Below are positions 1,251-63,884 of a DNA stretch of 64,000 nt, piece after piece. Both the position numbers and the translations under genes were made by a program. Source of the stretch: Akkermansia muciniphila. Lineage in GTDB: Bacteria; Verrucomicrobiota; Verrucomicrobiia; Verrucomicrobiales; Akkermansiaceae. The number at the start of each line of letters is the position of its first letter. Position 1 is the stretch's first letter. The stretch covers positions 1,550,001 through 1,614,000 of the forward strand of contig NZ_CP156688.1 in the NCBI RefSeq assembly GCF_040616545.1, in the 5' to 3' direction. The notes beneath the pieces are model-generated. The model saw only the letters and a program-made list of their open reading frames with translations, had not been told where the DNA came from and made no database searches.

Positions 1251-1279
1251 TTGACGGTGTGGGGTAGCTTATCTAACAT
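1251..1279 (+). promoter_or_regulatory. promoter of the 1286 gene, leaderless geometry
   Basis: TTGACG at 1251-1256, a 17-base spacer and TAACAT at 1274-1279. Six bases separate the -10 box from the ATG at 1286, so transcription should begin at the start codon. No Shine-Dalgarno sequence is present. Confidence 0.5.
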
Positions 1280-1285
1280 TTCCGC

Positions 1286-1963
1286 ATGTCCGACTACCTC
1301 TCTTCTTTGGGCTACCCTTTCCGGGGGCGCCCCATGGTGTTTATTTTTGGAGTGCTTATTATATGGGCCATGTATTTGGCTTCATGGGCTTCCCTCATTG
1401 GCCTGATTGCCAATTTCTGCTTCCTGCTGCCCTTCATGGGCGTCTTTTTCATGAAGATGGTGCAGCAGTCCGCCATGGGTGAAGAGGAAATCTGCCTTTT
1501 CCCGGAGCTGGAGGACTGGCTGGACAGCATGATGATGCCTTTCATTCAACTGGTGGCGTGCATGGTGGTGTCTTCCCTGCCTCTGGTTATTTACCTGAAC
1601 GTGGCGGACTGGGATTTGGACGGCTCCCTGGCCTGGCTTTTCATTGCGGCGGGGGCGGTGTACTTCCCGGGCGCGTTCATGAGAACAGCCGTTCTGGAAA
1701 GTTTTTCCGGGCTTTCACCCGTGGGCTGGTGGATGCTGGTCCGGAGGGCGCCCCTGGCCTATGCCGGGGTGCTTGCCGCCATTGGCGCAGGAGGATGGGT
1801 GATCCTGAACCTTCCTTCCGGTCTGCTGCTGGATTTTGTCATGGCCCCCGTGAAGCTCTACATCACCTGCGTGCTGATGAACGTGTGCGGCCTCTTCATG
1901 CTCAAGCATGAATTTGCCGAAGAAGGGGAAGAAGACGACTTTTCCATCTCCGGCCCGGCTTGA
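1286..1963 (+). CDS. polytopic membrane protein of unknown function
   Basis: A 225-residue protein with about five to six hydrophobic segments (roughly residues 15-55, 75-100, 112-130, 150-175 and 180-205), separated by short acidic loops, and a strongly acidic tail (EEGEEDD). The pattern is reminiscent of DUF4013-type membrane proteins, but I see no diagnostic motif. A leaderless-type promoter lies directly upstream. The following 415 bases hold no gene, so it appears monocistronic. Function unknown. Confidence 0.7.
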   Translation: MSDYLSSLGYPFRGRPMVFIFGVLIIWAMYLASWASLIGLIANFCFLLPFMGVFFMKMVQQSAMGEEEICLFPELEDWLDSMMMPFIQLVACMVVSSLPLVIYLNVADWDLDGSLAWLFIAAGAVYFPGAFMRTAVLESFSGLSPVGWWMLVRRAPLAYAGVLAAIGAGGWVILNLPSGLLLDFVMAPVKLYITCVLMNVCGLFMLKHEFAEEGEEDDFSISGPA

Positions 1964-2378
1964 GGGCCGCCCCCCTTCCGGCGTGCCGGGGGGACGCTTG
2001 CTCAATTGCGCGCGCACGACGGGGCGAAAGGCTGCCGGATGAAATTGCAGAGGGTAGGGGCCTGCGCCCCCGCACCAATGACGGTCACTGCGGGAGTGGT
2101 GAAGGATGATGGTTTGTTCTTGAGAAAGTAGTTGCAGGGGTGTGTCCCTGCATAAATGAGGTGGGCGGAAACCAGGTTTCCTTTTCCCGGGCCGCGTGCG
2201 GAATCCGGTGCTGGGAGACGTTGCGGAGACGGTGGACTGTCAAAGTACGTCCTCCGCTGAACGGAGGAGCGCGGAAGAAATGTCTTATCCGTTAAAGGTT
2301 GTCCGTTTCCGTGCAGGATGTTTCCGGCAGCGTGCCGGAATGCGGCGGCGGAAATGGACGTTATCTGAATTCAAGGTC
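1964..2378. other. gene-free, hairpin-rich interval
   Basis: This 415-base stretch has no convincing reading frame once the downstream epimerase is started at its nucleotide-binding motif (2379). Perfect stem-loops are visible at 2057-2070 (GGGGC/GCCCC), 2134-2151 (GCAGGG/CCCTGC), 2251-2267 (CCTCCG/CGGAGG) and 2322-2340 (8-bp stem, GCG loop). A second possible pairing, 2069-2073 with 2090-2094, excludes the first. It could be a structured RNA or a long regulatory leader. I could not match it to 6S, RNase P, SRP or tmRNA signatures. Confidence 0.45.
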
Positions 2379-3245
2379 ATGAATGTAGCCATTACGGGAT
2401 CCAGCGGATTTATCGGCAGCCATTTGTCCAGCCGCCTGGCGGTGCTGGGGCACCAGGTCACGCCCTTGTGGCGCTACCTCTTCACGCAGGACAGTGTGGA
2501 CTGCCTGGCAGAAGCCCTGGCGGGGTGCAATGCCGTCATCAATCTGGCCGGGGCGCCCATCGACCGGCGCTGGACGGATGATTACAAAAAGGAGCTGGTG
2601 GAAAGCAGAATCATGACCACCCGCAAGCTGGTGGAAGCGGTCAACCGCCTGCATGAGCCGCCGGAAGTGATGATTTCCACTTCCGCCGTGGGGTACTACA
2701 GCCCGTCCGGGTGCCATGGTGAGAAAGATGACCCAACGGCGGATTCCTTTCTGGCGGAATTATGCCTGGCCTGGGAAAAGGAGGCTGAGCTGGTGAATGG
2801 CTCCGTGCGGCTGGTCCGCACCCGGTTTGGCGTGGTTCTTTCCCCGGATGGCGGAGCCCTGCCCAGAATGGTGAGGCCCGCCCGGTTCGGCATCACGGCT
2901 TCCGTAGGGGACCCGGACCATTCCTTCTCCTGGGTGGCCCTGGAGGACCTGGTGGACGCCCTGATCTTCATCATGGGGAAGGGAGACATCTCCGGCCCGG
3001 TCAATGTGACGGCCCCGGAACGCACCACCAACCGGGAATTCTACAAGGCCGCCGCGGAGCATTTCCACACCCGCCTGTCCATCCATGTGCCGGACGCCGT
3101 TCTGCGCCTGCTGATGGGGGAGGCTTCCCAGGTGATTACCCGCGGGCAGTGCGCCGTGCCGGAAACGCTGCTGCGGGAGGGATTTGAATTTCAATATCCG
3201 GATATCCGCACTTTTTTCAACAAGGCATTCCCCGACAAATCATGA
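2379..3245 (+). CDS. TIGR01777 family NAD-dependent epimerase (YfcH-like)
   Basis: A 288-residue protein opening with MNVAITGSSGFIGSHL, the Rossmann dinucleotide motif of extended short-chain dehydrogenases. NLAGAPI and STSAVGYY segments follow, as in the YfcH/SULA subfamily, and the C-terminal DUF1731-like part includes LLMGEASQVI. An open frame continues upstream to 2196 but its sequence is low-quality, so the start is placed at the ATG before the Rossmann motif. The stop overlaps the next start (ATGA at 3242), so it is translationally coupled to the lipocalin. The substrate of this family is not established. Confidence 0.85.
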   Translation: MNVAITGSSGFIGSHLSSRLAVLGHQVTPLWRYLFTQDSVDCLAEALAGCNAVINLAGAPIDRRWTDDYKKELVESRIMTTRKLVEAVNRLHEPPEVMISTSAVGYYSPSGCHGEKDDPTADSFLAELCLAWEKEAELVNGSVRLVRTRFGVVLSPDGGALPRMVRPARFGITASVGDPDHSFSWVALEDLVDALIFIMGKGDISGPVNVTAPERTTNREFYKAAAEHFHTRLSIHVPDAVLRLLMGEASQVITRGQCAVPETLLREGFEFQYPDIRTFFNKAFPDKS

Positions 3246-3769: not shown

Positions 3770-4139
3770 GGGTTGCAGTCCGTGAACCGGGAAGAAGCGG
3801 CAGCTTGATGGAAAAGCTGTGTTCCGTTATGGGAAAAACGCCTTCGCTCCGTTCCGGGGAAATACAACTGTGAAGGCCGGGAAGCCGGGCGTGCCCGGTT
3901 GGACGGAATGCGAAGCATGAAGCCCGCGGTGCCGGGGAATCTGGAAGATGAACGAATCAAACCTTCTCCCAGTTGGCCGTGTTTTGTTCAAACCGTGGGA
4001 AAACAGTCCTTCCGCCGCGTCCTCTGATAGCTGCTCTGCAGGGAACCGTGGGGTGATTCATTGGCCTTTCAAACTTTTTCCCTGTTGCCTTTTCTCCGTC
4101 CACATCATTTAAAAAACGCGGCTATCCGGTTAAAAGCGC

Positions 4140-4167: not shown

Positions 4168-4170
4168 GTC

Positions 4171-4201
4171 ATTCATCCAAACATTGGATGTTTGGATGAA
4201 T
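4171..4201 (+). promoter_or_regulatory. inverted repeat (operator or leader hairpin) before ilvC
   Basis: A perfect 12-bp inverted repeat, 4171-4182 against 4190-4201, with a 7-base spacer. A second overlapping palindrome pairs CATCCAA (4174-4180) with TTGGATG (4184-4190). The element therefore contains three copies of the half-site TTGGATG, two direct and one inverted. It spans the predicted transcription start, as an operator would. The GntR regulator encoded at 6108 is one candidate ligand; that link is speculation. Confidence 0.55.
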
Positions 4202-4223
4202 TCTACTTAAAGAAGGAGTAACA

Positions 4224-5204
4224 ATGGATATTATTCATGATAACGCCGCTGATCTCAGCGCTTTGAACGGCAAGACCGTTGCCGTGATCGGATATGGCGC
4301 CCAGGGCCGCGCCCAGGCGCTTTGCATGCGTGACTCCGGTGTGAACGTGATTATCGGCGTTCGCCCCGGCAAGTCTTTTGACGCCGCCACCCAGGACGGT
4401 TTCCAGGTGATGACCGTAGCTGAAGCCGCCGACAAGGCGGACATCATCCACATTCTGCTGCCTGATGAAAGCCACGGCGCCGTGTATGAAGCTGAAATCA
4501 AGCCCTATCTGAAGGCTGGCAAGACGCTTTGCTGCTCCCACGGCTTTGCCTACGTGTTCAACACCATCGTTCCTCCCGCGGACGTGGATGTGATCATGGT
4601 GGCCCCCAAGGGCCCGGGCACGGAAGTGCGCCGCGTGTTTGAAGAAGGCTTCGGCTGCCCCGGCCTGATCGCCGTGCACCAGAACCCCTCCGGCAATGCC
4701 CGCAACGTGGCCCTTGCCATGGCGAAGGCTGAAGGCCTGACCCGCGGCGGCGTGCTGGAATGCACCATGGCCCAGGAAACGTATGAAGACCTCTTCGGTG
4801 AACAGAATGTGCTGTGCGGCGGCATTGTGGACCTGATGAAGTACGGTTTTGAAACCCTGACGGAAGCCGGGTATCCGCCGGAAATGGCTTACTTTGAATG
4901 CGTGCATGAAGCCAAGCTGATCGTGGACCTGATTTACACGGGCGGCATCCAGAAGATGAATTCCGTGATTTCCAACACCGCTGAATTCGGTGAATACTAC
5001 AACGGCCCGCAGATCCTGCCCGCCGATGTGAAGGAACGCATGAAGGAATCCCTCAAGCGCATTGAATCCGGCAAGTTCGCCAAGGACTGGCTGGAAGAAG
5101 CCGCCAAGGGCGCGCCCAACCTCAAGGCCAAGCGCGAAGCCCTGGGCCAGCACCCGGTGGAAATCGTGGGCGCCAAGATTCGCAGCCTGTTTGAAAGGAA
5201 CTAA
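4224..5204 (+). CDS. ilvC: ketol-acid reductoisomerase
   Basis: Converts acetolactate or acetohydroxybutyrate to the dihydroxy acid in valine, leucine and isoleucine synthesis. At 326 residues it is a class I (short) enzyme. The N-terminal GYGAQGRAQ is the nucleotide loop, followed by GVRPGKS, whose Arg and Ser favour NADPH. The C-terminal knotted helical domain carries ETYEDLFGEQNVLCGG and FECVHEAKLIVDL with the Mg-binding acidic residues. The start follows AAGAAGGAG at good spacing. It is not clustered with ilvB, ilvN or ilvD here and seems to be transcribed from its own promoter. Confidence 0.97.
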   Translation: MDIIHDNAADLSALNGKTVAVIGYGAQGRAQALCMRDSGVNVIIGVRPGKSFDAATQDGFQVMTVAEAADKADIIHILLPDESHGAVYEAEIKPYLKAGKTLCCSHGFAYVFNTIVPPADVDVIMVAPKGPGTEVRRVFEEGFGCPGLIAVHQNPSGNARNVALAMAKAEGLTRGGVLECTMAQETYEDLFGEQNVLCGGIVDLMKYGFETLTEAGYPPEMAYFECVHEAKLIVDLIYTGGIQKMNSVISNTAEFGEYYNGPQILPADVKERMKESLKRIESGKFAKDWLEEAAKGAPNLKAKREALGQHPVEIVGAKIRSLFERN

Positions 5205-5224
5205 GGTTTCTTTTGACTCTTTCA

Positions 5225-6101: not shown

Positions 6102-6107
6102 CTTTTC

Positions 6108-9795: not shown

Positions 9796-10060
9796 ATATC
9801 AATATGCCCCCCTCCGCAGGCAGCCTTTGAAGGTAAGAGAGCTGATGGAGTGAAGAGCATCGCTGTCTCTGGGGAGCGCCTTCCGTATAATCAAAAGCCA
9901 TTCATGGGAAAGGTTGGCTTGTTCTTTTTCCGGACGAATGGCAGCGTTGTTTCATCCCCCTTGAAAGAGGGGATTCCGGTGAAAGGGTGGCGGTGAAATA
10001 GATGGTAACAGGATGATTTTTATGCTTTGCAGGGTATGAAAGTTTGTTAGAGTTCCGGGC
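9796..10060. other. intergenic region, 265 bases
   Basis: No gene seen. It contains a small hairpin near 9956-9976 (ATCCCC/GGGGAT) and, at its right end, a promoter for the zinc-ribbon gene. Confidence 0.5.
10026..10053 (+). promoter_or_regulatory. putative leaderless-type promoter of zinc-ribbon gene
   Basis: TTTGCA at 10026-10031, a 16-base spacer and TAGAGT at 10048-10053, ending seven bases before the ATG at 10061. No Shine-Dalgarno sequence is visible. Confidence 0.4.
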
Positions 10061-10723
10061 ATGACTACCCCTGTTGAATTGAAGTGCCCGAAGTGCGGCG
10101 CCCTGCTGGCGATGGAAGATGTGAATATGGCCACGGATATGGCTTTATGCCGCGCCTGCAATAAGATAAGCAGGTTTTCAGACCTTGTGCAGGAGGAACG
10201 GGATGAGGAAATCCTTGATTCCATTCCCCGGCGCATGAGCGTGGTAAAAACGGCGCGGGGACTGGAAGTGACTTATAAGAAGCCGAAGGGCGCCGGATTT
10301 TTCTTTTTGCTGTTTTCCGTGATATGGAATGCCATTACGTATAGCATCTTGTTTGCGATGATGGGGAAAATGACCCATGAGGGTTTATTCGGGCAGTTGT
10401 TCCTGATTCCTTTCGTCCTGGTTGGATTCGGCACGTTGCTGGGCGCCGTTTATGTGCTGTTCGGCCGCATGACGCTGACTCTGACGCCGGGCAGGGGAGA
10501 GCTGTTCCGCGGAGTGGGGAGCCTGGGCCGCCGCCAGCAGTTTCTTCTGGCGAAGGATGCCCGCGTTTCCATTGAAGCGAGCAACATGCAGCAGAATCAT
10601 AAAGTGCTGAACAAGATTGTGGTGGATCAGCCGGACGGCAAGCCGTTCGAGTTCGGCACGGGTATCGCGGAAAAGGAAGCCCAGCAGTATGTAGCGGCCC
10701 TTCTGCGGCAGATGAGGGGGTAG
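10061..10723 (+). CDS. zinc-ribbon membrane protein (paralogue of 14161-14817)
   Basis: A 220-residue protein. An N-terminal treble-clef zinc ribbon (CPKCGALL ... CRACNKI, residues 9-33) is followed by two transmembrane segments (about residues 80-105 and 115-140) and a soluble C-terminal domain ending AAQQYVAALLRQMRG-like. The same architecture, including FRGVGSLGRRQQFLLAKDA against FRGIGPVGSTWTFLLPAQA, recurs in the protein encoded on the other strand at 14161-14817. The zinc ribbon could bind protein or nucleic acid at the membrane. Function not known. Confidence 0.75.
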   Translation: MTTPVELKCPKCGALLAMEDVNMATDMALCRACNKISRFSDLVQEERDEEILDSIPRRMSVVKTARGLEVTYKKPKGAGFFFLLFSVIWNAITYSILFAMMGKMTHEGLFGQLFLIPFVLVGFGTLLGAVYVLFGRMTLTLTPGRGELFRGVGSLGRRQQFLLAKDARVSIEASNMQQNHKVLNKIVVDQPDGKPFEFGTGIAEKEAQQYVAALLRQMRG

Positions 10724-10853: not shown

Positions 10854-10881
10854 TTGATAGGAACGGAGAACCGTGTAGATT
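10854..10881 (+). promoter_or_regulatory. sulfatase promoter, leaderless-type geometry
   Basis: TTGATA at 10854-10859, a 16-base spacer and TAGATT at 10876-10881, then nine bases to the ATG at 10891. The nine bases carry no Shine-Dalgarno sequence. Confidence 0.5.
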
Positions 10882-10890
10882 TAGCAGACT

Positions 10891-12285
10891 ATGAAGAGAG
10901 CGCATTTGTTGTTGATGCTGTTCGGCCTGCTTTGCGGGGTGGCGGGGGCGCAGAGCCGTCCTTCCACGCCGCCGAACATGATCGTTATTCTGGCGGATGA
11001 CCTGGGGTACGGAGATCTGGGCTGCACAGGGTCCAAACAGATCAAGACTCCTTCCCTGGACCGGCTGGCGAAGGAGGGCGTGTTCTGTTCCCGGGCGTAC
11101 GTAACGGCGCCGATGTGCTCACCTTCCCGCATGGGGCTGCTGACGGGCCGTTTCCCGAAGCGCTACGGCATTACCACGAATCCCAATGTGAAGGTGGATT
11201 ACCTTCCGGAGTCCCATTACGGACTGCCCCAGACGGAGAAGCTGATTCCGGAATATTTGAAGCCTTACGGCTACCGGAGCGCCGTGTTCGGCAAGTGGCA
11301 TCTGGGCCACACGAAGGGGTACACGCCGCCGGAACGCGGCTTCACGCACTGGTGGGGGTTCCTGGGCGGTTCACGGCCTTATTTCCCCATCAAGAAGGAG
11401 GCTGAAGGCCTGAGCCCCTCCGCCATTGAGTCCAATTTCACGGATAAGAAGGATATTACCTACCTGACGGATGACATTACGGACCGGGCGGTGGAGTTCC
11501 TGCAGGAAGCCGGAAAGGACAAAAAGCCGTTTTTCATGTTCGTTTCCTACAATGCCCCCCACTGGCCCTACCAGGCCAAGCCGGAGGATCTTGCCAAATT
11601 CAAGAACGTGCAGAACCGGGACCGCAGGATTTACTGCGCCATGGTGTATGCCATGGACAAGGGCGTGGGGCGCATTCTGGACGCCTTGAAGAAGGACGGC
11701 CTGGAAAGGGACACGATTGTCGTGTTCCTGTCGGACAACGGCGGCGCTCCGGAAGCTCCTTCCTGCAACGCCCCTTTCCGTGGAGCCAAGAGACAGCATT
11801 TTGAAGGGGGGGTGCGCGTGCCGTTCATCATCAGGTATCCTGCGGACAAGAGGCTGGCGGCAGGGAGCGTTTGCAGGCAGCCCGTTTCCACGGTGGACCT
11901 GCTCCCCGCGTTGCTGAAGGCAAACGGCCACCAGATTCCGAAGAAGCTGGACGGCATGGATATTCTGGAGCTGGTAGGCAATGAGAAGGCTTCCGTCCCG
12001 CGTACGTTCTTCTGGTGCACGGATTACACCTCCGCTGTGCTGGACGGGGATTTGAAGTACCTGCTGGTGGCGGACCGCGCGCCGCAGTTTTACAGCGTTA
12101 CGGATGATCCCCAGGAGCAGAAGGATTTATATTTTTCCAAGCATCAGGATGCGGAACCCCTCGCCAAAAAGCTGGGAACCTACCTGACCACTACGCCCGC
12201 GTGCCGCTTCCCGGACAGCATCAGCTGGTCCTCCAAGCTCATGCGGGAGTATGACAAGACCACGCCGGATAAGCAGCCTGAATGA
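10891..12285 (+). CDS. secreted sulfatase, formylglycine type (family S1)
   Basis: A 464-residue hydrolase of sulfate esters, probably acting on host or mucin glycans. It has a signal peptide (LLLMLFGLLCGVAGA), the metal-binding pair DD at residues 36-37 (ILADDLGYGD) and the active-site signature CSPSRMGLLTGR, with Cys76 predicted to be converted to formylglycine by an anaerobic or aerobic maturase not in this window. FGKWHLGH and FLSDNGG supply further catalytic and metal residues. Length and order match arylsulfatase-type enzymes. Mucin as the substrate is inferred from the likely organism; the exact sulfated sugar cannot be read from sequence. Confidence 0.93.
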   Translation: MKRAHLLLMLFGLLCGVAGAQSRPSTPPNMIVILADDLGYGDLGCTGSKQIKTPSLDRLAKEGVFCSRAYVTAPMCSPSRMGLLTGRFPKRYGITTNPNVKVDYLPESHYGLPQTEKLIPEYLKPYGYRSAVFGKWHLGHTKGYTPPERGFTHWWGFLGGSRPYFPIKKEAEGLSPSAIESNFTDKKDITYLTDDITDRAVEFLQEAGKDKKPFFMFVSYNAPHWPYQAKPEDLAKFKNVQNRDRRIYCAMVYAMDKGVGRILDALKKDGLERDTIVVFLSDNGGAPEAPSCNAPFRGAKRQHFEGGVRVPFIIRYPADKRLAAGSVCRQPVSTVDLLPALLKANGHQIPKKLDGMDILELVGNEKASVPRTFFWCTDYTSAVLDGDLKYLLVADRAPQFYSVTDDPQEQKDLYFSKHQDAEPLAKKLGTYLTTTPACRFPDSISWSSKLMREYDKTTPDKQPE

Positions 12286-14965: not shown

Positions 14966-14994
14966 TTGTGCGGCGCATGGCCTCCATGTAGGAT
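14966..14994 (+). promoter_or_regulatory. alkD promoter, leaderless geometry
   Basis: TTGTGC at 14966-14971, a 17-base spacer and TAGGAT at 14989-14994. Seven bases separate the -10 box from the ATG at 15002. The AGGA here could be misread as a Shine-Dalgarno sequence, but it is part of the -10 hexamer. Confidence 0.45.
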
Positions 14995-15001
14995 GGCGCC
15001 C

Positions 15002-15697
15002 ATGATTGAGAGCAGGCGGAAGCTGAGGGAAAAGATTGAGTCATTGGCGGAACCGGAGTTCCAGAAGTTTTCCGCTGCCCTGATTCCCGGCGTCAGCCGC
15101 CTGCTGGGCGTCCGCCTGCCCGTGCTCCGGAATCTTGCCCGTGAGGAGTTGAGGGGGAATTGGCGGGAGCTGCTGGAGAACCCCGCCGGGGATCCGTATG
15201 CAGAGGAAGTGATGCTGGACGGCATGCTGATAGCGCTGGCGCGCATGGAGCCGGAGGAACGCCTGGAACACGTCGCGCGCTTTGTGTCCCGCATGGATAA
15301 CTGGGCCGTTTGCGATACCTTCTGCTCCGGGCTGAAGTTCAGCAAAAAGCATCCGTCCCTGGTGTGGGAGTTCATTCAGCCGTATTTGAATTCCACCCGT
15401 GTGTATGATGTCCGCTTTGCCGTGGTGATGATGCTGGCCCACTTCATTACGGAGGATTACGTGGAACGGGTGCTTTCCCTGCTGGACGGGGTGCGGCATG
15501 AGGATTACTACGTGGGCATGGCCGTAGCCTGGGCGGTTTCCGTCTGTTATGTGAAGTTCCCGGCGCTGACGCTGGAATATTTGCGTAATTCCTCCCTGTC
15601 CGATTTCACTTACAACAAGGCATTGCAGAAGATCATCGAATCCCTGCGGGTGAGCCGGGAAGACAAGGAACTGATGCGGAGCATGAAGCGCAAATAG
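15002..15697 (+). CDS. alkD: AlkD-like DNA alkylation repair protein
   Basis: A 231-residue all-helical HEAT-like repeat protein of the AlkD/AlkC DNA glycosylase superfamily (COG4912). Markers are [23 protein letters not shown] near residues 30-50, [14 protein letters not shown], and the core [19 protein letters not shown], where the W and D correspond to the lesion-facing Trp and catalytic Asp. [20 protein letters not shown] and [19 protein letters not shown] follow. Members excise N3- and N7-alkylpurines without base flipping; some small variants have other roles. The start is chosen from promoter spacing and from loss of similarity upstream. Confidence 0.85.
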
Positions 15698-19986: not shown

Positions 19987-23526
<3,540 letters not shown>

Positions 23527-23533
23527 TTAAAAC

Positions 23534-24562
23534 ATGATTACTCAGTTGCGCATGATCTCTTTTTCCCGACAGTCCGTTGTTATGATGCTATGCCTGTTGA
23601 TCGCCGTGGGAATGGATTGTGCGCACGGGGCGGAAAAGGAGGGCGCGCCGCTGAACCCGCTTTCCTGCGTGCATGCCGCGGACGGCAGGGTGACGGTCCG
23701 CGGCGCAGCCATGGGGACGGTGTTTACGGTACGCGCCTATCCCGGGAAGGGCATGGACGCGGCGGAGACGGAAAAAGCCTGTACGGAGGCGTTGGCCTGC
23801 GCCGTTCACTGGGAGAAGGTGATGTCCGCCATGGATGCGGAAAGCTCCCTGGCCGCATTTAACGCGGCGGAAAGCGGCGTGATCGTGCCCATACCTGTGG
23901 AACTGAAAGAGGTTCTGCTGCTGGCCATGAAATATTCCCGGTTGACGGACGGCGCGTTTGATCTCACGCTGGGGCCCTGCATCCGCCTGTGGAAGAAGAG
24001 CCGCCGCCGGGACGTTCTCCCGTCCCATGAGGAGTTGGAATGCGCACGCCGGGCTTCCGGTTGGGAAAAGCTGTGCGTGGGGAAGAGAGGGGCGCTCAAG
24101 AAGGTTCCCGGAATGAGGTTGGACCTGGGAGGCATCGGCAAGGGGTTTGCCGTGGACCGGATGGCGGAGCTTTTAAAGGGAAAAGGGGTGCTTTCCTTCT
24201 TCATTGACAGTACCAGCGACGTGCTGGCGGGAGCTCCCCCGCCCGGGGAGAAGGGATGGCGGCTGCGGGTGGAGGCCGGGCACGGAGAAGGAAGAACGCT
24301 GCTGTTGAGCCATGCCGCCGTTTCCACCTCCGGGAACGCCCGCCAGATGGTGAAGATTGGCGGAGTGGAGTATTCCCACGTGCTGGACCCGAATACGGGG
24401 CTGGGCGTTACCGAAGGGCGCCAGGCAAGCGTGCAGGCGCCCAGCGCAGCCATGGCGGATGCGCTGGCGACGGCCGCCTGCGTGATGAGTGAAGAGGATT
24501 TCCGTTCCCTGGCGGAGTGCCTGCCCGGAGTCTTTCTACTGAGCTCTTTCGTGAACCCCTAG
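23534..24562 (+). CDS. apbE: FAD:protein FMN transferase (ApbE family)
   Basis: Attaches FMN to Thr or Ser of target flavoproteins such as NqrB/NqrC or RnfG/RnfD. A 342-residue exported protein with an N-terminal hydrophobic segment (about residues 12-32) and no clear lipobox. Family motifs are AMGTVFTVRAY, DGAFDLTLGP, DLGGIGKGFAVDR (Mg and FAD binding) and SHVLDPNTGLGV. The C-terminal ADALATAACVM segment is also conserved. Its Nqr or Rnf partners are not in this window. A second ATG at 23552 is possible, but promoter spacing favours 23534. Confidence 0.92.
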   Translation: MITQLRMISFSRQSVVMMLCLLIAVGMDCAHGAEKEGAPLNPLSCVHAADGRVTVRGAAMGTVFTVRAYPGKGMDAAETEKACTEALACAVHWEKVMSAMDAESSLAAFNAAESGVIVPIPVELKEVLLLAMKYSRLTDGAFDLTLGPCIRLWKKSRRRDVLPSHEELECARRASGWEKLCVGKRGALKKVPGMRLDLGGIGKGFAVDRMAELLKGKGVLSFFIDSTSDVLAGAPPPGEKGWRLRVEAGHGEGRTLLLSHAAVSTSGNARQMVKIGGVEYSHVLDPNTGLGVTEGRQASVQAPSAAMADALATAACVMSEEDFRSLAECLPGVFLLSSFVNP

Positions 24563-27379: not shown

Positions 27380-27408
27380 TTGCACGGAGGGATGCTCCGT
27401 GAGAGATT
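27380..27408 (+). promoter_or_regulatory. promoter of the enoyl reductase gene
   Basis: TTGCAC at 27380-27385, a 17-base spacer and GAGATT at 27403-27408. The first ATG (27409) abuts the -10 box; the second ATG (27415) is six bases away and is the better leaderless start. Confidence 0.4.
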
Positions 27409-27414
27409 ATGACC

Positions 27415-28416
27415 ATGAATGAAAATCATTATGCAGAGTTTTCCGAGTGCAGTATGAAGCCCCAGGATGTGCTGGAGTACGTTTCCGGCCCCATGCCGGT
27501 TCCGGCGGAAGGGGAGGTGCTGGTCCGGATGAAGGCCGCTCCCATTAATCCGGCGGACATCAACTTTGTGCAGGGCGTGTACGGCGTGAAGCCCGTACTG
27601 CCCCATTCACGCGCCGGGCTGGAAGGCTGCGGAGTGGTGGAAGAGTCCCGTGCAGAGGGTTTCCGCAAGGGGGATGAGGTGATTCTGCTGAGGGGCGTAG
27701 GTTCCTGGAGCGAGTATGTGGCGGTTCCCGCCGTGAATGTGATGAAGCTTCCCGTGAAGGTGGATCCGGTCCAGGCCGCCATGCTGAAGGTGAATCCCCT
27801 GACGGCCCTGCGCATGCTGGAGGGGTTCGTTTCCCTGGTGCCGGGAGACTGGGTGGTGCAGAACGCCGCCAATTCCGGCGTGGGCAGGTGCATTATCCAG
27901 CTGGCGCGCGAGATGGGCGTCAAGACGGTGAATTTTGTGAGGAGGCCGGATGAATTGAGGGATGAGCTGACCGCCCTGGGCGCCGACCTGGTGGTGGGAG
28001 AGGATGACGAGGACGTGGTGAAGAAGACGCTGGCACGCCTGGACGGGAAGAGGCCCGTGCTGGCTTCCAACGCCGTGGGCGGGGAAAGCGCCCTGCGCCT
28101 GATGGACATGCTGGCCCCCGGCGGCAGCATGGTGACGTACGGCGCCATGAGCAGGAAGAGCATCAAGGTGCCGAACGGTTTCCTGATTTTCAAGGGAATC
28201 AGGCTGGAAGGCCTGTGGGTGACGCAGTGGCTCAAGAATGCCCCCGTTCCGGAGATTGAGGCCGCTTACGACAAGCTGGCGCGGCTGATGGCGGACGGCA
28301 GGCTGAAGCAGGCCGTGGATACCGTTTATCCGCTGAACGACGTCCGGCAGGCCGTAGAGAAGGCCCAGGAGGAGTTCCGCAGCGGCAAGGTGGTGCTGAG
28401 CATGGACAACGCCTGA
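27415..28416 (+). CDS. MDR-superfamily 2-enoyl thioester reductase (MECR/ETR1-like)
   Basis: A 333-residue NADPH oxidoreductase. The sequence tracks mitochondrial trans-2-enoyl-CoA/ACP reductase along its length: INPADINFVQGVYG (MECR has INPSDINMIQGNYG), VNPLTALRMLEGF, VVQNAANSGVGRCIIQLA (cofactor site), LASNAVGGESAL and LIFKGIRLEGLWVTQW. The catalytic Tyr is in VQGVYG. In mitochondria it performs the last step of each fatty acid elongation cycle, so here it could replace or supplement FabI. No zinc ligands are seen. It overlaps the next gene (TGATG). Confidence 0.85.
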   Translation: MNENHYAEFSECSMKPQDVLEYVSGPMPVPAEGEVLVRMKAAPINPADINFVQGVYGVKPVLPHSRAGLEGCGVVEESRAEGFRKGDEVILLRGVGSWSEYVAVPAVNVMKLPVKVDPVQAAMLKVNPLTALRMLEGFVSLVPGDWVVQNAANSGVGRCIIQLAREMGVKTVNFVRRPDELRDELTALGADLVVGEDDEDVVKKTLARLDGKRPVLASNAVGGESALRLMDMLAPGGSMVTYGAMSRKSIKVPNGFLIFKGIRLEGLWVTQWLKNAPVPEIEAAYDKLARLMADGRLKQAVDTVYPLNDVRQAVEKAQEEFRSGKVVLSMDNA

Positions 28417-33172: not shown

Positions 33173-33201
33173 TTGACCCGGAGGCCGTCCCTTGGTGGAA
33201 T
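33173..33201 (+). promoter_or_regulatory. ispE promoter, leaderless-type geometry
   Basis: TTGACC at 33173-33178, a 17-base spacer and TGGAAT at 33196-33201, nine bases before the ATG at 33211. No Shine-Dalgarno sequence. Confidence 0.5.
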
Positions 33202-33210
33202 CCATGACGT

Positions 33211-34059
33211 ATGATCAGTCGCAGCGCTCCGTGCAAGGTGAACGTTTTCCTCCGCGTTCTGGGAAAGAGGCCGGACGGTTTCCATGAAGTGGATACCGTG
33301 ATGGTTCCCCTGGAATTGTGCGACGTGCTGGAGTTTTCCCCGGCGGACGCCCTGGAAATGAGCTGCGACGCTCCGGGCGTTCCGCTGGATGAAAGCAACC
33401 TGGTCATGAAGGCGGGGCGCCTGATGGAGCGGGAGCTGGGGCGGCCCATGCCGTGGCATGTGCATCTGGTCAAGAACGTGCCCCATGGCGCGGGGCTGGG
33501 CGGCGGCAGCAGTGACGCCGCATGCGTGTTGCGCGCCCTGAATGAGCTGGAACACGGGGGCTTGCCGCCGGAACGCCTGGCGGAACTGGCCGGGGAGATC
33601 GGTTCCGACGTGGGATTTTTCATTTACGGCGCGGCGTGCCGCTGCACCGGGCGCGGGGAGAAGGTGGAACCCCTGCCGGAATGGGGAGAATGGCAGCCCC
33701 AGGTAGTGCTGCTGAAACCGTCCTTCGGCGTTTCCACACCGGACGCTTACCGCCGCTGGGCAGGTTCAAGGGAACTGCCGGGCATACCTTACGGGGAGCA
33801 GAGGGTGGACGGCCATGTGCTGGTGAACGATCTGGAAAGGCCCGTGTTTGAGAAGCATCTGTTTCTGGCGGAAATGAAGAGCTGGCTGCTGGAAAGGCCC
33901 GGTGTGCGCGGCGCCATGATGTCCGGCTCCGGCTCCACCATGTTCGCCGTGGCGGAGGACGCGGAAGCGGCCCGCAGGCTGATGGAGGATGCCGCCCAGG
34001 AGCTGGACCCCACCCTGTGGATGTGGTCCGGCCGCGTGATGCAGCGGGGCGCCCGGTAA
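33211..34059 (+). CDS. ispE: 4-diphosphocytidyl-2-C-methyl-D-erythritol kinase
   Basis: ATP-dependent kinase of the methylerythritol phosphate isoprenoid pathway. It is 282 residues. [27 protein letters not shown] at the N-terminus includes the substrate-binding Lys and His. [21 protein letters not shown] is the GHMP kinase ATP loop, and [17 protein letters not shown] is motif 3. The catalytic Asp is in GSDVGFF. It is divergent from the uppS-containing operon, whose product consumes the isoprenoid units it helps make. Confidence 0.96.
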
Positions 34060-34086: not shown

Positions 34087-34116
34087 TTGACGGCGGGGGA
34101 GGCATGCCGTTACACT
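34087..34116 (+). promoter_or_regulatory. promoter of the small secreted protein gene
   Basis: TTGACG at 34087-34092, an 18-base spacer and TACACT at 34111-34116. The first ATG (34123) is six bases away and the second (34126) nine bases away, both within the leaderless spacing seen elsewhere. Confidence 0.5.
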
Positions 34117-34122
34117 CCTGCC

Positions 34123-34689
34123 ATGATGAAGAGTTTGTTTGCAGGCGTGGCCCTCGTGGCCGCGTGCGCCGTCCAGGCCGGGGAATATGGAGCCAGCGCG
34201 GTCCAGGCCGCCCGCGAGCTTTCCGGAGCGGTGAAGACGGGCGACATGATGTGGATGATTGAGAAGATGTATGCGCCCATGAAGAAGCAGCTCGTTTCTT
34301 CCTTCCCCGGCGGGGAGGCCGCTTTCATGACCACCATGAGGGAAAAGATGCAGGCTGCCGCCGCCGTGATGAAAGAGCGCGGCATGGTGGTGGAGACGTA
34401 TGAAATCGGCAATCCCACGGCGGAACACCTGGTGAAGAACGGGGACGAGGTGCTGGTGGTGCTCCCCACCCGGATGGTCATTTCGATGAAGCGCCCGGAC
34501 GGGATGCCCGTGAAGATGGAGAATACCGGCGTTCTGGTGCTGGTGAAGGATTTGAAGGACAAGGGCCCCTGGACGTTCATCGACGCCTCCAGGATGAATG
34601 CGAATGCCCTGCGTTCCATGTTTTATGACCTGCCGGAAAAGGTGAACCTGCCTCCGGTTTCCTCCCGCCAGCTTCCCGTGGGCCAGTAG
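34123..34689 (+). CDS. secreted protein of unknown function
   Basis: A 188-residue protein with a signal peptide (SLFAGVALVAACAVQA, cleavage before GEYG). The mature part is methionine-rich and helical at first (MMWMIEKMYAPMKKQL, MREKMQAAAAVMKERGM), then forms a small alpha/beta segment (EVLVVLPTRMVISMKRPDGMPVKMENTGVLVLV) resembling the NTF2/DUF4019-like folds. It ends in a proline-rich tail. Residue conservation suggests a genuine family; no function is assigned. MM at the start leaves two candidate initiation codons. Confidence 0.7.
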   Translation: MMKSLFAGVALVAACAVQAGEYGASAVQAARELSGAVKTGDMMWMIEKMYAPMKKQLVSSFPGGEAAFMTTMREKMQAAAAVMKERGMVVETYEIGNPTAEHLVKNGDEVLVVLPTRMVISMKRPDGMPVKMENTGVLVLVKDLKDKGPWTFIDASRMNANALRSMFYDLPEKVNLPPVSSRQLPVGQ

Positions 34690-51228: not shown

Positions 51229-53055
51229 TTAGGAGAAGCTCTTGATGAGGATCTGGCGCTGTTCTTCCAGTTCGGCCGGGAGCTTCTTGCCCACCTTGTC
51301 GAACAGTTCGGTCTGGCTTTCCAGTTCAGCCTGCCATTCGCTCGGGTTGAGAGCCATGTTGGCGTTGAACTGTTCTTCGCTGTAGTCCAGGCCGGTCTTG
51401 TCCAGTTCGGCATAGGTCGGGGAGACGCCCAGCACGGTCTTCTGGCCTTCCGTCTTGCCCTTGGCGCGGCGGAGGATCCAGTCGAGAACGCGCATGTTGT
51501 CGCCAAAGCCCGGCCAGATGAAGTTGCCGTCCTTGTCCTTGCGGAACCAGTTCACGTTGAAGATCAGCGGAGGATTGGCCACGGTCTTGCCCATGTCCAG
51601 CCAGTGCTGCCAGTAGTCGCCCACGTTGTAGCCGATGAAGGGAAGCATGGCCATCGGGTCGCGGCGGACCTGGCCGATGTTACCGAAGGCGGCGGCGGTC
51701 ATTTCGGAGCCCATCGTAGCGCCGACGTATACGCCGTGCGTCCAGTCGCGGGACTGGAAGACGAGGGGCATGGTGGTGGCGCGGCGGCCGCCGAACAGGA
51801 TCGCGGAGAGGGAAACGCCTTCCGGGTTCTGCCATTCGGGGTCGATCGTCGGGCACTGGGCGGCGGGAGCGGTGAAGCGGGCGTTCGGGTGAGCGCACTT
51901 GCGGCCGCAGTCCGGGGTCCAGTCATTGCCCTGCCAGTCGATGGCGTGGGCGGGAGCGGGGCCGTCCATGCCTTCCCACCAGACGTCGCCGTCGTCCGTC
52001 AGGCCCACGTTGGTGAAGATGACGTTTTCCTTGATGGTGTCCATGGCGATCGGGTTCGTCTTGTAGGACGTGCCGGGAGCCACGCCGAAGTAGCCGTTTT
52101 CCGGGTTGATGGCGTGGAAGGTGCCGTCTTCATGGGGCCAGATCCAGGCGATGTCGTCACCGATGATGGATGTCTTCCAGCCGGCTTCGCGGTAGGAAGC
52201 GGGGGGAACGAGCATGGCCAGGTTGGTCTTGCCGCAGGCGGACGGGAATGCGCCGCCGACATAGGCCTTCGTGCCGTCCGGGGATTCAATGCCCAGGAGG
52301 AGCATGTGTTCAGCCATCCACTTGTTCTTGCGGGCGATGGCGGAGGCGATGCGCAGGGCCAGGCACTTCTTGCCGAGCAGGGCGTTGCCGCCGTAACCGG
52401 AACCGAAGGACCAGATTTCTTCCGTTTCCGGGAAGTGGCAGATGTATTTTTCTTCATTGCAGGGCCACGGCACGTCGATCTGGCCGTCTGCAAGCGGGGC
52501 GCCCACGGTGTGGAGGCAGGGAACGAAGGTTCCGTAGCCGTCGCGCTTCGGGTTGCCGCCGCCCTTGACTTCGTCTTCCAGGCGCTTGAGAACCTGTGCG
52601 CCCATCTTGGTCATGATGCGCATGTTGACCACGACGTAGGGGGAGTCCGTGATTTCAATGCCGATCTTGGCCAGGGGGGAGTCCAGGGGACCCATGCAGA
52701 AGGGAATCACGTACATGGTACGGCCCTTCATGCAGCCCTTGAAGAAGCCCTTCAGCTTGGTCTTCATTTCGGCGGGGTCGGCCCAGTGGTTGGTCGGGCC
52801 GGCGTCTTCTTCCTTCTCGCTGCAGATGAACGTGCGGTCTTCCACACGGGCCACATCGGAGGGGGTGGAACGGGCGAGGAAGCATCCGGGGCGCTTCTCG
52901 GGGTTCAGTTTGATAAAGGTGCCCTTTTCAACCATCATGTTGCAAAGCTCATCATTTTCTTCCTGAGAGCCGTTGCACCAATAGATGGAGTCGGGTTGGC
53001 AAAGCTGGGCGATTTCTTCGACCCACTTCTTAGCTGCTTCGTGAGTGGTACTCAT
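51229..53055 (-). CDS. pckG: phosphoenolpyruvate carboxykinase (GTP)
   Basis: Interconverts oxaloacetate and phosphoenolpyruvate with GTP, for gluconeogenesis or anaplerosis. It is 608 residues from [15 protein letters not shown]. It has [19 protein letters not shown] near residue 60, then [18 protein letters not shown], the P-loop with active cysteine [24 protein letters not shown], and [40 protein letters not shown] near the C-terminus gives nucleotide contacts. The GTP type follows from overall similarity to vertebrate and actinobacterial enzymes. The frame stays open upstream, but homology and promoter place the start at 53055. Confidence 0.97.
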
Positions 53056-53064
53056 GGTGCAAAT

Positions 53065-53093
53065 AGTGTATGCACGGAAATGGGCGTTGGCAA
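53065..53093 (-). promoter_or_regulatory. pckG promoter, leaderless-type geometry
   Basis: On the minus strand, TTGCCA (53093-53088), a 17-base spacer and TACACT (53070-53065), nine bases before the ATG at 53055. The nine bases (ATTTGCACC) carry no Shine-Dalgarno sequence. Confidence 0.55.
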
Positions 53094-53307
53094 GTCTCCC
53101 GTGCGGCTTTTTGCGGGGCCGTTTTGTTTCTCCGGGAGGGAAAATCCGGTGCAGGGGAAGGCGTTGCCCGGAATACGGGGCGCTCCGGGCGGGACCGTTC
53201 CCGGGGCCCTGTTTTTTCCCTGTTGCCGTGTTCCCGTAAGCAGAAAAAAGGCTGTTTTGACTGGAAATCTGCTTGCCAGCTCGCGCGTGATAGTCTAGGG
53301 AAGAATC

Positions 53308-53979
53308 ATGAATGTTAGAAAGTTGATGGCAAATGCGGTGATTCTGGTGCTGCCGGCCCTGCTGGCGGCGTGTTCGGATGCCTCGCGGCCGCCCGCCGTC
53401 AGCTTCAAGATTCAGAACGCTCCCCCCGTGCCGCGCACCATGTCCCAGATGTCCCGGGAGGTGCATATCAGCCGTGATTTCATGTCCCCGCGTTCCCGCC
53501 CGCGCCGTGCGGCCCGTTCCATGCGTCCGCGCTTCATCACCATCCACAGCACGGCCAATCCCACGGGAGACGCCGCGGCGCACGCCCGGGCGCTGAAAAG
53601 GGGGGCCATGGGCTCCCTGAACTGGCATTTTACGGTGGACCAGTACCGGGCCATCCAGCATATTCCGCTGAATGAGACGGGGCGGCATGCGGACCGCGGC
53701 GGCCCCGGGGACATGTATTCCATCGGGATTGAAATGGGCGAGGTAAGAAGCCACAACCCCATCGTCACCTGGAACCGCTCCGCCAAGCTGACGGCCGTGC
53801 TGATGAAGCAGTACAACATCCCCCTCCGCAATGTAGTGCCCCATTATTACTGGACGGGCAAGAACTGTCCGGCCCCGCTGCTGACCAACGGGCGTCCGGG
53901 GCATAAGTGGAGCTGGTTCGTTTCCCGCGTGGATTACTACAGGCGCTGCCTGGAAACCCGTCCCGCCGCGGCGCTCTGA
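53308..53979 (+). CDS. N-acetylmuramoyl-L-alanine amidase, lipoprotein (Amidase_2)
   Basis: A 223-residue peptidoglycan amidase that cleaves between MurNAc and the stem peptide. The signal ends in LLAAC, a lipobox, so it is probably anchored to a membrane in the periplasm. The amidase_2 fold begins [22 protein letters not shown] (first Zn His), continues [28 protein letters not shown], and ends [15 protein letters not shown], where His and Cys complete the zinc site. A ribosome-like AGGGAAG precedes the ATG. recG follows after 16 bases. Confidence 0.9.
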
Positions 53980-53995
53980 CGGAGGCGCGCGCATC

Positions 53996-60516: not shown

Positions 60517-60548
60517 GGTCCGGTAGAGAGAAAAGGCGGGGCCCGCCG

Positions 60549-61832
60549 TCAGGCTGTCCTGCCCGGCCGCGGAATGCGGGCCGGGGGCAGCGGCGTATCC
60601 ATCGTCAGGTCTTCAGGCACCAGCCGCGTGGTATTCTTTTTAATCTGTTCCCAGGTGATGCGCTGCCCGGTATGGGCTGCCTCGCGTCCCATGATGGCCG
60701 CCAGGGTCTTGTTGGCCGCGCTTTCCAGCGTCTGCGTCCAGGTGCCGGAGCGGAGGAAACGGTAAAAGGCCACGTGCGTGTCTGCGTACATATTGCCCCG
60801 TTCTCCGCGGAAACGCCAGCGTTTATCCGCCTGGATGTGGGGACGGTACGGAGTGACCAGCATGCCTTTTTCACAAACCGTCCGGTCCACGATCTCCCCG
60901 TGGCAGCCTACCCACTGCCTGCATGAGATGTGGGCGGCCACGTTGTGGTCATATTCAAAATAAACGTCGTAATGGTCCCATACGTCTCCATCGTCCCGGC
61001 GCTGGGCGCGTCCGCCGGAGCCGAAAGCCGCCAGCGGAAGCTGCTCATTCATGGACCACACCATGCCGTCAATCGTGTGGACGATCTGTTCCACGAACTG
61101 GCCGCCGCTCAGCCAGTTCCAGGCAGTCCAGTTGCGGAGGGCCCAGGCCACGTCCGTATCGGACGCGGGGCGGGAATCCAGCGCCAGAGGGGACTTGGGC
61201 GGCGTGGTGTAATAAAGGCCGTCAAAGGAAAGCACGCGGCCCAGCTGGCCGGAAGACAGTTTGTGGTGGGCCGCTTCGTTCGCCTTGTCGTAACGCCAGC
61301 AGAAACCGTCCAGAATAACCAGGTTCCGGAGCTTGGCCAGCCGTGCGGATTCCAGGACGGAAAGCACGCCGGGAACGTCCACCGCCACGGGTTTTTCCGC
61401 ATAAATATGCTTGTTGGCGTCAATGGCCGCCGCCAGATGTTCCGGGCGGAAAGCGGGCGGCGTGCAGAGCAGCACCACGTCAATGTCCGTTTGCAGCAGC
61501 TTCTTGTAGCCGTCCAGGCCGTCGAACATGCGGCTCTTATCCACCTGCACGCGGCTGCCGTACTCCTCCGCCAGCAGGTTGGAGCCGAAATCAATCCGTT
61601 CCTGAAACACGTCCGCCAGTGCCCAGGCCACTGTTCCGGGGTCCGCGTCCAGCGCGTTCTTCATGGCGCCCAGGCCGCGGCCTCCGCAGCCGACCAGGCC
61701 CACCTTGAGCGGCCTGGCGTCCGGCACGGCTCCGGCGGCGGTTACATTCAAATAGGGCATGGCCGCCAGGAACCCGGCCGTTCCCGCGGCGGTTCTTAAA
61801 AAACTGCGTCTGTTCCAAATAGGGGAACCCAT
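60549..61832 (-). CDS. Tat-exported Gfo/Idh/MocA-family oxidoreductase
   Basis: A 427-residue protein with a Tat signal (NRRSFLRTAAGTAGFLAAM). The Rossmann domain begins VGLVGCGGRGLGAMKNAL, followed by DVVLLCTPPAFRPEHLAAAIDANKHIYAEKPVAVDVPG, where EKP is the family motif; the substrate domain follows. Such periplasmic members use bound NAD(H) and act on sugars; GH109 glycosidases belong to the same fold. This protein lacks the GGxQHD-like features I know from GH109, so it is called only as Gfo/Idh. It starts from its own TATAAT promoter and ends 33 bases before actA. Confidence 0.85.
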   Translation of the reverse strand: MGSPIWNRRSFLRTAAGTAGFLAAMPYLNVTAAGAVPDARPLKVGLVGCGGRGLGAMKNALDADPGTVAWALADVFQERIDFGSNLLAEEYGSRVQVDKSRMFDGLDGYKKLLQTDIDVVLLCTPPAFRPEHLAAAIDANKHIYAEKPVAVDVPGVLSVLESARLAKLRNLVILDGFCWRYDKANEAAHHKLSSGQLGRVLSFDGLYYTTPPKSPLALDSRPASDTDVAWALRNWTAWNWLSGGQFVEQIVHTIDGMVWSMNEQLPLAAFGSGGRAQRRDDGDVWDHYDVYFEYDHNVAAHISCRQWVGCHGEIVDRTVCEKGMLVTPYRPHIQADKRWRFRGERGNMYADTHVAFYRFLRSGTWTQTLESAANKTLAAIMGREAAHTGQRITWEQIKKNTTRLVPEDLTMDTPLPPARIPRPGRTA

Positions 61833-61841
61833 CTCGGTGGA

Positions 61842-61869
61842 ATTATACGTTGTCAGGCGGTGGAATCAA
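61842..61869 (-). promoter_or_regulatory. promoter of the Gfo/Idh gene, leaderless-type geometry
   Basis: On the minus strand, TTGATT (61869-61864), a 16-base spacer and a perfect TATAAT (61847-61842), nine bases before the ATG at 61832. No Shine-Dalgarno sequence lies between. Confidence 0.6.
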
Positions 61870-62550: not shown

Positions 62551-62597
62551 AAATCGCTTGCCTCCGTCCGGCAGTTGCGGACTGTATCAGCGTCTTT

Positions 62598-62637
62598 CCC
62601 TCCCCGTTTTTCAGGGAAGGGAGGGGCGCAATTTTTT
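62598..62637 (+). terminator. putative terminator after the small lipoprotein gene
   Basis: CCCTCCC (62598-62604) can pair with GGGAGGG (62619-62625), followed by GCGCAA and six Ts (62632-62637). The loop is long, so confidence is moderate. Confidence 0.5.
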
Positions 62638-62736
62638 GTGAGAGCGGTTTTCCCGCTTTAACGGGAAAAGGCTGTCTTTGAAACGGGGACATGGAATTCT
62701 CCTTTCCGGAGGATTGGGAAAACTCCGGAGAGAAAA

Positions 62737-63849
62737 TCAGGCCAGGGGGCGGCGTAATTCTTCAATGGCTTCCGCCATGTCTGCCCGCGTGATCTTCTTG
62801 GAAATGCCCGCTTCCCCCGCCTTGGAGAGAAGGACGAAGCGGATGGTACCGGCCCGGAATTTTTTGTCGGAGGCCGTTTTCTTGAGTACCAGTTCCGTGT
62901 CGATATCGTCCGGAAGGACCAGGGGCAGTTCCAGCGCTTCAAGAGCGCAAAGAACCTTCCGGGAATCGGAAGGGCTCAAGCCGGCCTTCCGCTCGCTCAG
63001 GAACAGGGCGGCGCGCATGCCCAGCGCCACGGCTTCTCCATGCAGGATGGTGCCGTAGGGAACGGCGGCTTCAATGCCGTGGCCGATGGTGTGACCGAAA
63101 TTGAGCAGGGCGCGGATATCAAGCGTCTCCAGCTCGTCGCTCTCCACAATGCGGGCCTTGATCGCCACGTTCCGGGCAATCAGCTCCGGAAGCCTGGAAA
63201 TGGTATTCAGGGAAAAGCCGATGGAAAGCTCCGGCCCCAGCCGTTTCAAATCATGAAGCATGGAAGCGTCCCTGATGGCGGCGTGCTTGACGGCTTCCGC
63301 CAGTCCTTCCGCCAGAGTCCGGCGGTCCAGCGTCACCAGCGTGGTGGGATCAATCACGACGACGGCTGGCTGGTGGAAAGCGCCCACCAGGTTTTTCCCT
63401 TCCGGAATGTTGACGGCTGTTTTTCCGCCCACGGAACTGTCCACCTGGGCCACCACCGTTGTGGGAATATGCATGAAAGGAATGCCCCGGTAATAAACGG
63501 AGGCTACAAAACCCGCCAAATCCCCCACCACGCCTCCGCCCAGGGCGGCGATGCATCCGGTGCGGTCAATGCCCGCCCGTACCAGTTCGGAACACAATTC
63601 CTGCGCCTGAAGCATATTCTTGGAGGCTTCCCCGGCTTCCACCACATGCAGGCTGGGCATAAAGCCCGCGCTCTCCAGGGACTTCATCACGCGTTCCGCA
63701 TAAAGGGGAGCCACGCGGGTATCCGTGATAATCGCGATCTTGCCGTCCAGTCCGGCGCGGTAGGCAAACTCACCCACGCGGTCCAGCGCGCCGTTTTCCA
63801 CGTGGATATCGTAGGAACGTTCCCCGAGAGCAAGAGAAATGGTAGGCAT
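62737..63849 (-). CDS. aroB: 3-dehydroquinate synthase
   Basis: Converts DAHP to 3-dehydroquinate in the shikimate pathway. It is 370 residues from MPTISLALGERSYDI. NAD-binding and metal motifs are intact: GGGVVGDLAGFVASVYYRGI near residue 105, IPTTVVAQVDSSVGGKTAVN, AEAVKHA for Zn binding, NFGHTIGHGIE and ILHGEAVALGM. The start at 63849 fits a leaderless promoter; the ATG at 63867 lies upstream of the -10 box and is unlikely. The next gene on this strand ends 75 bases before it. Confidence 0.96.
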   Translation of the reverse strand: MPTISLALGERSYDIHVENGALDRVGEFAYRAGLDGKIAIITDTRVAPLYAERVMKSLESAGFMPSLHVVEAGEASKNMLQAQELCSELVRAGIDRTGCIAALGGGVVGDLAGFVASVYYRGIPFMHIPTTVVAQVDSSVGGKTAVNIPEGKNLVGAFHQPAVVVIDPTTLVTLDRRTLAEGLAEAVKHAAIRDASMLHDLKRLGPELSIGFSLNTISRLPELIARNVAIKARIVESDELETLDIRALLNFGHTIGHGIEAAVPYGTILHGEAVALGMRAALFLSERKAGLSPSDSRKVLCALEALELPLVLPDDIDTELVLKKTASDKKFRAGTIRFVLLSKAGEAGISKKITRADMAEAIEELRRPLA

Positions 63850-63855
63850 GCGGCC

Positions 63856-63884
63856 AGTATGAGGCATTCCGGAAGGAAGCTCAA
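63856..63884 (-). promoter_or_regulatory. aroB promoter, leaderless geometry
   Basis: On the minus strand, TTGAGC (63884-63879), a 17-base spacer and CATACT (63861-63856), six bases before the ATG at 63849. Confidence 0.5.

Follow-up and report, generated by a model that had tools for sequence, protein, structure and literature searches.

Leaderless messages in Akkermansia were reported in 2016, when Cappable-seq placed 10% of the transcription start sites of A. muciniphila (886 positions, mouse caecum) at start codons, as compared to 0.4% in Escherichia coli (Ettwiller et al. 2016, PMC4782308). In the accessible parts of that paper, this tenth of the high-confidence start sites falls at annotated start codons, with -35 and -10 boxes upstream. 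The same arrangement is the subject of the present work, which deals with eleven genes in a stretch of 64 kb (the window; positions 1,550,001 to 1,614,000 of NZ_CP156688.1) from the 3.055-Mb single-contig genome of A. muciniphila, where promoters of the sigma-70 type in all probability abut the start codon.

Related systems are known from other bacteria. In the TA-led genes described by Zheng et al. (2011, PMC3160421) the first T of a TANNNT hexamer lies about 12 bases before the start, and a -10 hexamer which ends six bases before the ATG, as found here, likewise has its T at -12; the accessible main text of that survey contains no occurrence of Akkermansia or Verrucomicrob. Organisms in which Shine-Dalgarno (SD) sequences are scarce despite an intact CCUCC are listed in the available portion of PMC10783764, and the list, in line with the little SD use found here, includes A. 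muciniphila and A. glycaniphila. An intact anti-SD together with little SD use is also common to Akkermansia and the Bacteroidia, whose ribosomes hide the anti-SD (PMC9976891, seen in part); the accessible main text of that work does not contain the word leaderless, and its very strong rpsU SD was not found in the Akkermansia sample. From PMC4782308, PMC10783764, and PMC3160421 it follows that the present finding exemplifies a phenomenon already known from this genus.

As far as it is accessible, PMC4782308 gives a percentage only, with no gene names, no comparison of species, and no distances from the -10 box to the ATG, all of which are provided here. Literature searches, for which subscription papers were mostly beyond reach, found in print neither conservation and -10-to-ATG distances gene by gene nor a start site map or promoter study of Akkermansia later than 2016. 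The published percentage is thus turned into named and conserved genes of a much-studied gut bacterium with little SD use, which makes Akkermansia a place to ask how the ribosome finds its starts without SD.

Promoter-like pairs at eleven start codons

A first-pass annotation of the window had named eleven genes with a -35/-10 pair at a spacing of 16–18 bases, ending 6–9 bases before the ATG, and with no SD sequence. This observation of abutting promoters was confirmed. At all eleven sites a -10-like hexamer ends 6, 7, or 9 bases before the ATG (the number of bases between the end of the -10 and the ATG is called d in the following) and has a -35-like partner, the best spacing being 15–18 bases (Table 1). 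Pairs were scored by the log-likelihood ratio (LLR) of a two-box (-35/-10) promoter model. For the eleven sites, the named aroB loci, and the samples from relatives in the genus and from the order, this model had been trained on 446 sample genes outside the window. Eight of the eleven sites exceed an LLR of 2, and 10061, 15002, and 27415 are weak when taken singly. The weakest is 10061, where the best -35 of the model is shifted one base on; its counterparts in the two relatives described below score 3.4 and 2.9. By reading, no SD core stands at its customary distance from any of the eleven starts, except for the AGGA at 15002, which belongs to the -10 there (TAGGAT). We take ispE, pckG, and aroB to be the proper names of the genes at 33211, 53055, and 63849.

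Genes were called by coding potential with a simple program which is blind to upstream signals and which yielded 925 genes, 52 of them within the window. It agreed with five of the eleven starts. Those at 10061, 10891, 27415, 34123, and 53055 were not picked, and at 63849 a frame on the opposite strand was taken in place of aroB; these six starts are based on homology, on domain position, or on the first-pass annotation. In the open frame of pckG (51229–54174, minus strand) the first ATG lies 373 codons upstream of 53055, and the caller took 53844. The start at 53055 is supported because the N-terminal domain of phosphoenolpyruvate (PEP) carboxykinase begins at residue 10 of the resulting 608-amino acid reading. 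Leaderless promoter and domain position together mark this start, and automatic annotation may overextend genes such as pckG.

At position 229 (plus strand) of the window, outside the eleven, a TAGTAT ends 9 bases before an ATG (10 in the relative G017) and may indicate a further leaderless start; the best fit of the model there is a different hexamer at d6, with an LLR of only 1.9.

Table 1. Promoter-like pairs next to start codons in the window, and the contrasting ilvC start. Numbers within the arrangement give the bases between the elements; d, bases between the end of the -10 and the ATG.
Start	Coordinates (strand)	Arrangement	Product	LLR	d
1286	1251..1288 (+)	TTGACG-17-TAACAT-6-ATG	225-amino acid protein, no Pfam match	5.6	6
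10061	10026..10063 (+)	TTTGCA-16-TAGAGT-7-ATG	220-amino acid protein, no Pfam match	1.0	7
10891	10854..10893 (+)	TTGATA-16-TAGATT-9-ATG	sulfatase	3.1	9
15002	14966..15004 (+)	TTGTGC-17-TAGGAT-7-ATG	DNA alkylation repair family	1.7	7
23534	23497..23536 (+)	TTGCCC-18-TAAATT-7-ATG	ApbE family	3.4	7
27415	27380..27417 (+)	TTGCAC-17-GAGATT-6-ATG	zinc-binding dehydrogenase family	1.5	6
33211	33173..33213 (+)	TTGACC-17-TGGAAT-9-ATG	GHMP kinase (presumably ispE)	3.7	9
34123	34087..34125 (+)	TTGACG-18-TACACT-6-ATG (ATGATG)	188-amino acid protein, no Pfam match	2.7	6
53055	53053..53093 (-)	TTGCCA-17-TACACT-9-ATG	GTP-type PEP carboxykinase (presumably pckG)	4.7	9
61832	61830..61869 (-)	TTGATT-16-TATAAT-9-ATG	GFO/IDH/MocA oxidoreductase	4.8	9
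63849	63847..63884 (-)	TTGAGC-17-CATACT-6-ATG	3-dehydroquinate synthase (presumably aroB)	3.0	6
4224 (contrast)	4213..4226 (+)	AAGGAG 5 bases before ATG; same AAGAAGGAGTAACA-ATG in the relatives G017 and G004	ilvC		

Enrichment over the genome sample

As the eleven sites had been picked by hand, a sample of the genome is the fair test. The count of -10 hexamers at 6–9 bases before starts, which the first-pass annotation had proposed for the whole genome, was therefore carried out on a sample of 1.26 Mb (41% of the genome), for which 60 stretches of 20 kb were taken. Genes divergent from or more than 60 bases away from their neighbour were regarded as non-operon genes (482 with an ATG start), and starts other than ATG were excluded from all promoter counts. 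TAnnnT ends 6–9 bases before the ATG 70 times among these 482 genes (Poisson p ~6e-13), namely 21, 13, 11, and 25 times at d6, d7, d8, and d9, the background at distances of 25–94 bases being 6.46 per position.

When the promoter model was scored on held-out genes (mean of 12 halves), an LLR above 2 was reached by 18.6% of the non-operon genes; the share was 5.5% in offset windows and 2.3% at operon-internal starts. Training on the same sample gave 120 of 482 genes (24.9%) versus 6.5% of offset windows, with operon-internal starts at 2.1–2.3% across both scorings. The window was included in the training for this last count, as it was for the TAnnnT count, the E. coli control, the genus rows, and the secreted-protein and 16S-pairing tests given below. 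Offset windows are a severe control since they may contain genuine promoters of leadered genes, and the percentages from this 41% of the genome are probably lower bounds since the start calls are noisy. Fitting by expectation-maximization (EM), seeded with TTGACA/TATAAT, converged to a -35 of TTGmC, a spacing of 17, and a -10 of TAtaAT with distance peaks at 6, 7, and 9; the mixture weight was 0.39, versus 0.18–0.23 in three shuffled sets. Raw counts of TTGAC/TTGCC peak 28–35 bases before the ATG. A TANNNT-like -10 about 10–12 bases upstream of the start, by which TA-led genes are recognized, thus occurs above both shuffled and offset controls. The same steps applied to E. coli K-12 yielded no leaderless excess (3 of 64 versus 4.7%). 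Samples of two relatives did show such an excess (G015, 19 of 164 versus 4.4% offset, p=0.0001; G004, 7 of 36 versus 7.4% offset, p=0.015).

That the leaderless set would consist mostly of metabolic and secreted functions was not borne out for the secreted part: a signal-like N-terminus, judged by a crude rule, was found in 23 of 95 leaderless and 49 of 276 other genes (p=0.18); the comparison omits 111 genes with intermediate scores or with the -10 at another distance.

Conservation within the genus

In syntenic sequence of the relatives G017 and G004 all eleven start codons are retained. In each of the two the pair scores above an LLR of 1 at ten of the eleven sites, with d equal within one base. 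Ungapped upstream identity to G004 is only 0.30–0.38 for 1286, 10061, and 10891, and the pair at 1286 is kept in both relatives despite an identity of 0.32 to G004. The site at 15002 reaches an LLR of 3.8 in G004 at an upstream identity of 0.47. For 27415 the LLR is 1.5, 1.4, and 1.5 across the three genomes; both relatives retain its start and lack the in-frame ATG at 27409. The stretch available from G015 gave a usable match for 33211 only.

Three genes were followed through the genus, with the own gene included and the in-frame ATG nearest to the start of homology taken as the start (up to 42 bases away, in L079); rows were dropped at 3 of 30 pckG loci lacking the N-terminus and at 3 of 25 outside ispE loci lacking an ATG. 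Searches for ilvC and purH returned no loci. The pair (LLR>1) is present in 23 of 24 aroB rows (16 at d6, 6 at d7, and 1 at d8), in 17 of 17 pckG rows, every one with d9 and a spacing of 17, and in 25 of 31 ispE rows (14 at d6, 4 at d7, and 7 at d9). It is retained at protein identities down to 59% (aroB), 80% (pckG), and 47% (ispE), orthologues within one genus being non-independent observations. The closest match to aroB among the named records retained is A. muciniphila CSUN-56 with 99% protein identity. At all three genes the geometry is thus conserved among orthologues, a property which lies outside the published definition of TA-led genes.

Shine-Dalgarno use and start context

The first-pass annotation had contrasted the leaderless genes with others carrying real leaders. 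The two modes do coexist, and the second is mostly not driven by SD: an SD core precedes 8.8% of 814 starts versus 10.2% of control windows in the own sample, as compared to 58.7% versus 5.5% in E. coli (n=109). The 16S tail pairs less strongly with the sequence ahead of starts (-4.08 kcal/mol) than with control windows (-4.87 kcal/mol). The 3' end of the 16S rRNA reads GGATCACCTCCTTT, so the anti-SD is intact, and Akkermansia thus combines an intact anti-SD with little SD signal in the manner of an SD-blind ribosome. As SD is marginal, the contrast is one between leaderless genes and mostly SD-less leadered genes, and the leaderless genes form one part of a genome in which SD is little used. 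The leading examples of the 2011 survey, Streptomyces and Deinococcus, reportedly use SD for many other genes, whereas here it is marginal.

A small SD class does exist. Among 923 genes, here with non-ATG starts retained, there are 26 six-base anti-SD matches ending 4–7 bases ahead of the start, as compared to an expectation of about 8 from positions 13–40, so that SD-using genes make up at most roughly 2%. Strings resembling AGGAGG show a weak peak 4–7 bases before the start in operon-internal genes, too. In samples of 56–84 starts from each of four other families of the order there was no clear excess of SD cores over controls (7.1 versus 6.0%, 4.8 versus 3.6%, 7.1 versus 10.7%, and 2.9 versus 8.7%).

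Of 194 operon-internal starts, 62% are directly preceded by C (position -1) and 66% carry a pyrimidine at -2. Over all 814 starts C stands at -1 in 49%, versus 17% of 109 in E. coli. This may be a start context independent of SD; C also precedes 57% of 7089 in-frame methionine codons. A pyrimidine at -1 was considered as the mark of a pyrimidine-purine start site at the ATG and was rejected; since starts of all kinds often have a C there, it does not establish that transcription begins at the A. The presence of T in this position, seen in 12 of 24 d9 genes versus 7 of 35 d6–7 genes (p=0.02), is only suggestive.

Probable leaderless transcription and its alternatives

A holoenzyme of the sigma-70 type starts RNA some 7–8 bases downstream of the -10. 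Judged from the position of the boxes, promoters with d6–7 would start transcription at the A of the ATG and those with d9 about 2–3 bases before it, giving leaderless or nearly leaderless messages, and to this reading we assign a probability of about 0.86. Such messages would leave no room for an SD sequence, and the ribosome would take them by their 5'-terminal AUG together with fMet-tRNA, which is the route of entry given for leaderless mRNAs elsewhere (PMC10783764, as far as accessible). The interpretation offered in the first-pass annotation is supported in part, namely for the promoters, by sequence and by conservation. In expression constructs for Akkermansia, promoters of this kind might serve with no ribosome-binding site added.

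Several observations weigh against leaderless transcription. The pair at 23534 has an LLR below 1 in both relatives (0.5 and 0.9), and 6 of the 31 ispE rows of the genus lack a pair. G017 alone, for which 80 kb and poorly trained start calls were available, gave no significant excess (4 of 35 versus 8.1%, p=0.31). This relative is also the exception of the genus in that SD cores exceed the control (16.7% versus 6.2%, n=48). The distribution of distances tails to about 13 bases, so some messages would carry leaders of several bases.

If SD is hardly used, a start-context signal of another kind would be expected, and the hexamers might be such a feature of translation or composition, an AT-rich unstructured start region, with the real promoters further upstream. 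Non-operon genes are indeed mildly enriched in A and T from -15 to -9. Operon-internal genes, however, need translation signals and no promoter, and there the pair is scarce (2.1–2.3%); moreover the -35 partner belongs to the signal, at a spacing of 16–18 and with TTGAC/TTGCC concentrated where such a box should lie, and orthologues retain both boxes while the sequence between has diverged. We regard this explanation as improbable. Mere chance, with a reader choosing good examples among common promoter-like hexamers, deserves even less credit: offset windows do reach an LLR above 2 in 5.5% and three of the eleven sites are weak, but the excess in the sample and the genus-wide retention of the distance refute it for the set as a whole, and only single weak sites such as 10061 and 27415 could be wrong.

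A narrower form of leaderless transcription, compatible with it, would have real promoters giving mostly 2–7-base leaders, zero-leader messages being a minority. The commonest single distance is d9 (25 TAnnnT), which is also that of four of the eleven window sites, and the tail extends to 13. Against this, d6 and d7 combined are commoner (34 TAnnnT) and are the conserved state of aroB, and according to PMC4782308 (seen in part) 10% of the start sites coincide with start codons. We consider this form possible and rather doubtful. More speculative still is the idea that leader length is under gene-specific selection with two favoured states, d6–7 and d9 (a leader of about 3 bases), and d8 disfavoured. 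For it speak pckG, fixed at d9 and spacing 17 despite variation in the sequence of its -10 and its spacer, and aroB, with d6–7 in 22 of 23 hits. Against it speak the modest size of the d8 dip (11 TAnnnT versus 13 and 25 alongside), the occurrence of d8 in one aroB row, at 10061 in G004, and at 10891 in G017, the non-independence of the orthologues, and ispE, which alternates between 6–7 and 9 within the genus. Were it true, a ribosome with little SD use would be reading the exact 5'-end geometry of its messages.

Reach beyond the genus, rpsU, and ilvC

For aroB, pckG, and ispE outside the genus the pair was found in only 2 of 38 rows. In a set of named aroB loci belonging to other Verrucomicrobiota it was present in 8–10 of 21 versus 1.5–2.6% offset, depending on the background used. 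This set goes back to 28 loci chosen out of 80 as Verrucomicrobiota by title, with L260 already excluded (its match begins at residue 37); of the 28, five lacked an in-frame ATG within range, and two labelled A. muciniphila were removed. These outcomes are at odds, and the arrangement at aroB may reach beyond the genus. In four genomes from other families of the order no clear signal was obtained with the Akkermansia-trained matrix (17 of 218 versus 6.0% offset, p=0.17).

In Bacteroidota the SD of rpsU, the gene of bS21, pairs at below -13 kcal/mol (PMC9976891, accessible part). All 39 genomes encode bS21. Patterns from the rpsU N-terminus located the gene itself in only four of them, the own genome (L015, about position 8243), G004, G015 (L206), and G017, and in these a short AAGGA lies 9–10 bases before the ATG; another pattern search matched eight genomes, four at places other than rpsU. 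No exceptionally strong SD was found, pairing in the own genome and G015 amounting to -5.8 kcal/mol (by ViennaRNA duplexfold, a method other than that of PMC9976891), a value which 160 of 814 genes surpass. As pairing at rpsU is weak, autoregulation by bS21 in the Bacteroidota style is not claimed.

The contrasting ilvC start is among 28 genes with a six-base anti-SD match 2–12 bases before the start. Ahead of its AAGGAG, at 4171–4201, lies a perfect inverted repeat, ATTCATCCAAACAT-TGG-ATGTTTGGATGAAT, which is retained in G017 and G004 as judged by eye and which, as part of the leader, may form a hairpin or serve as an operator.

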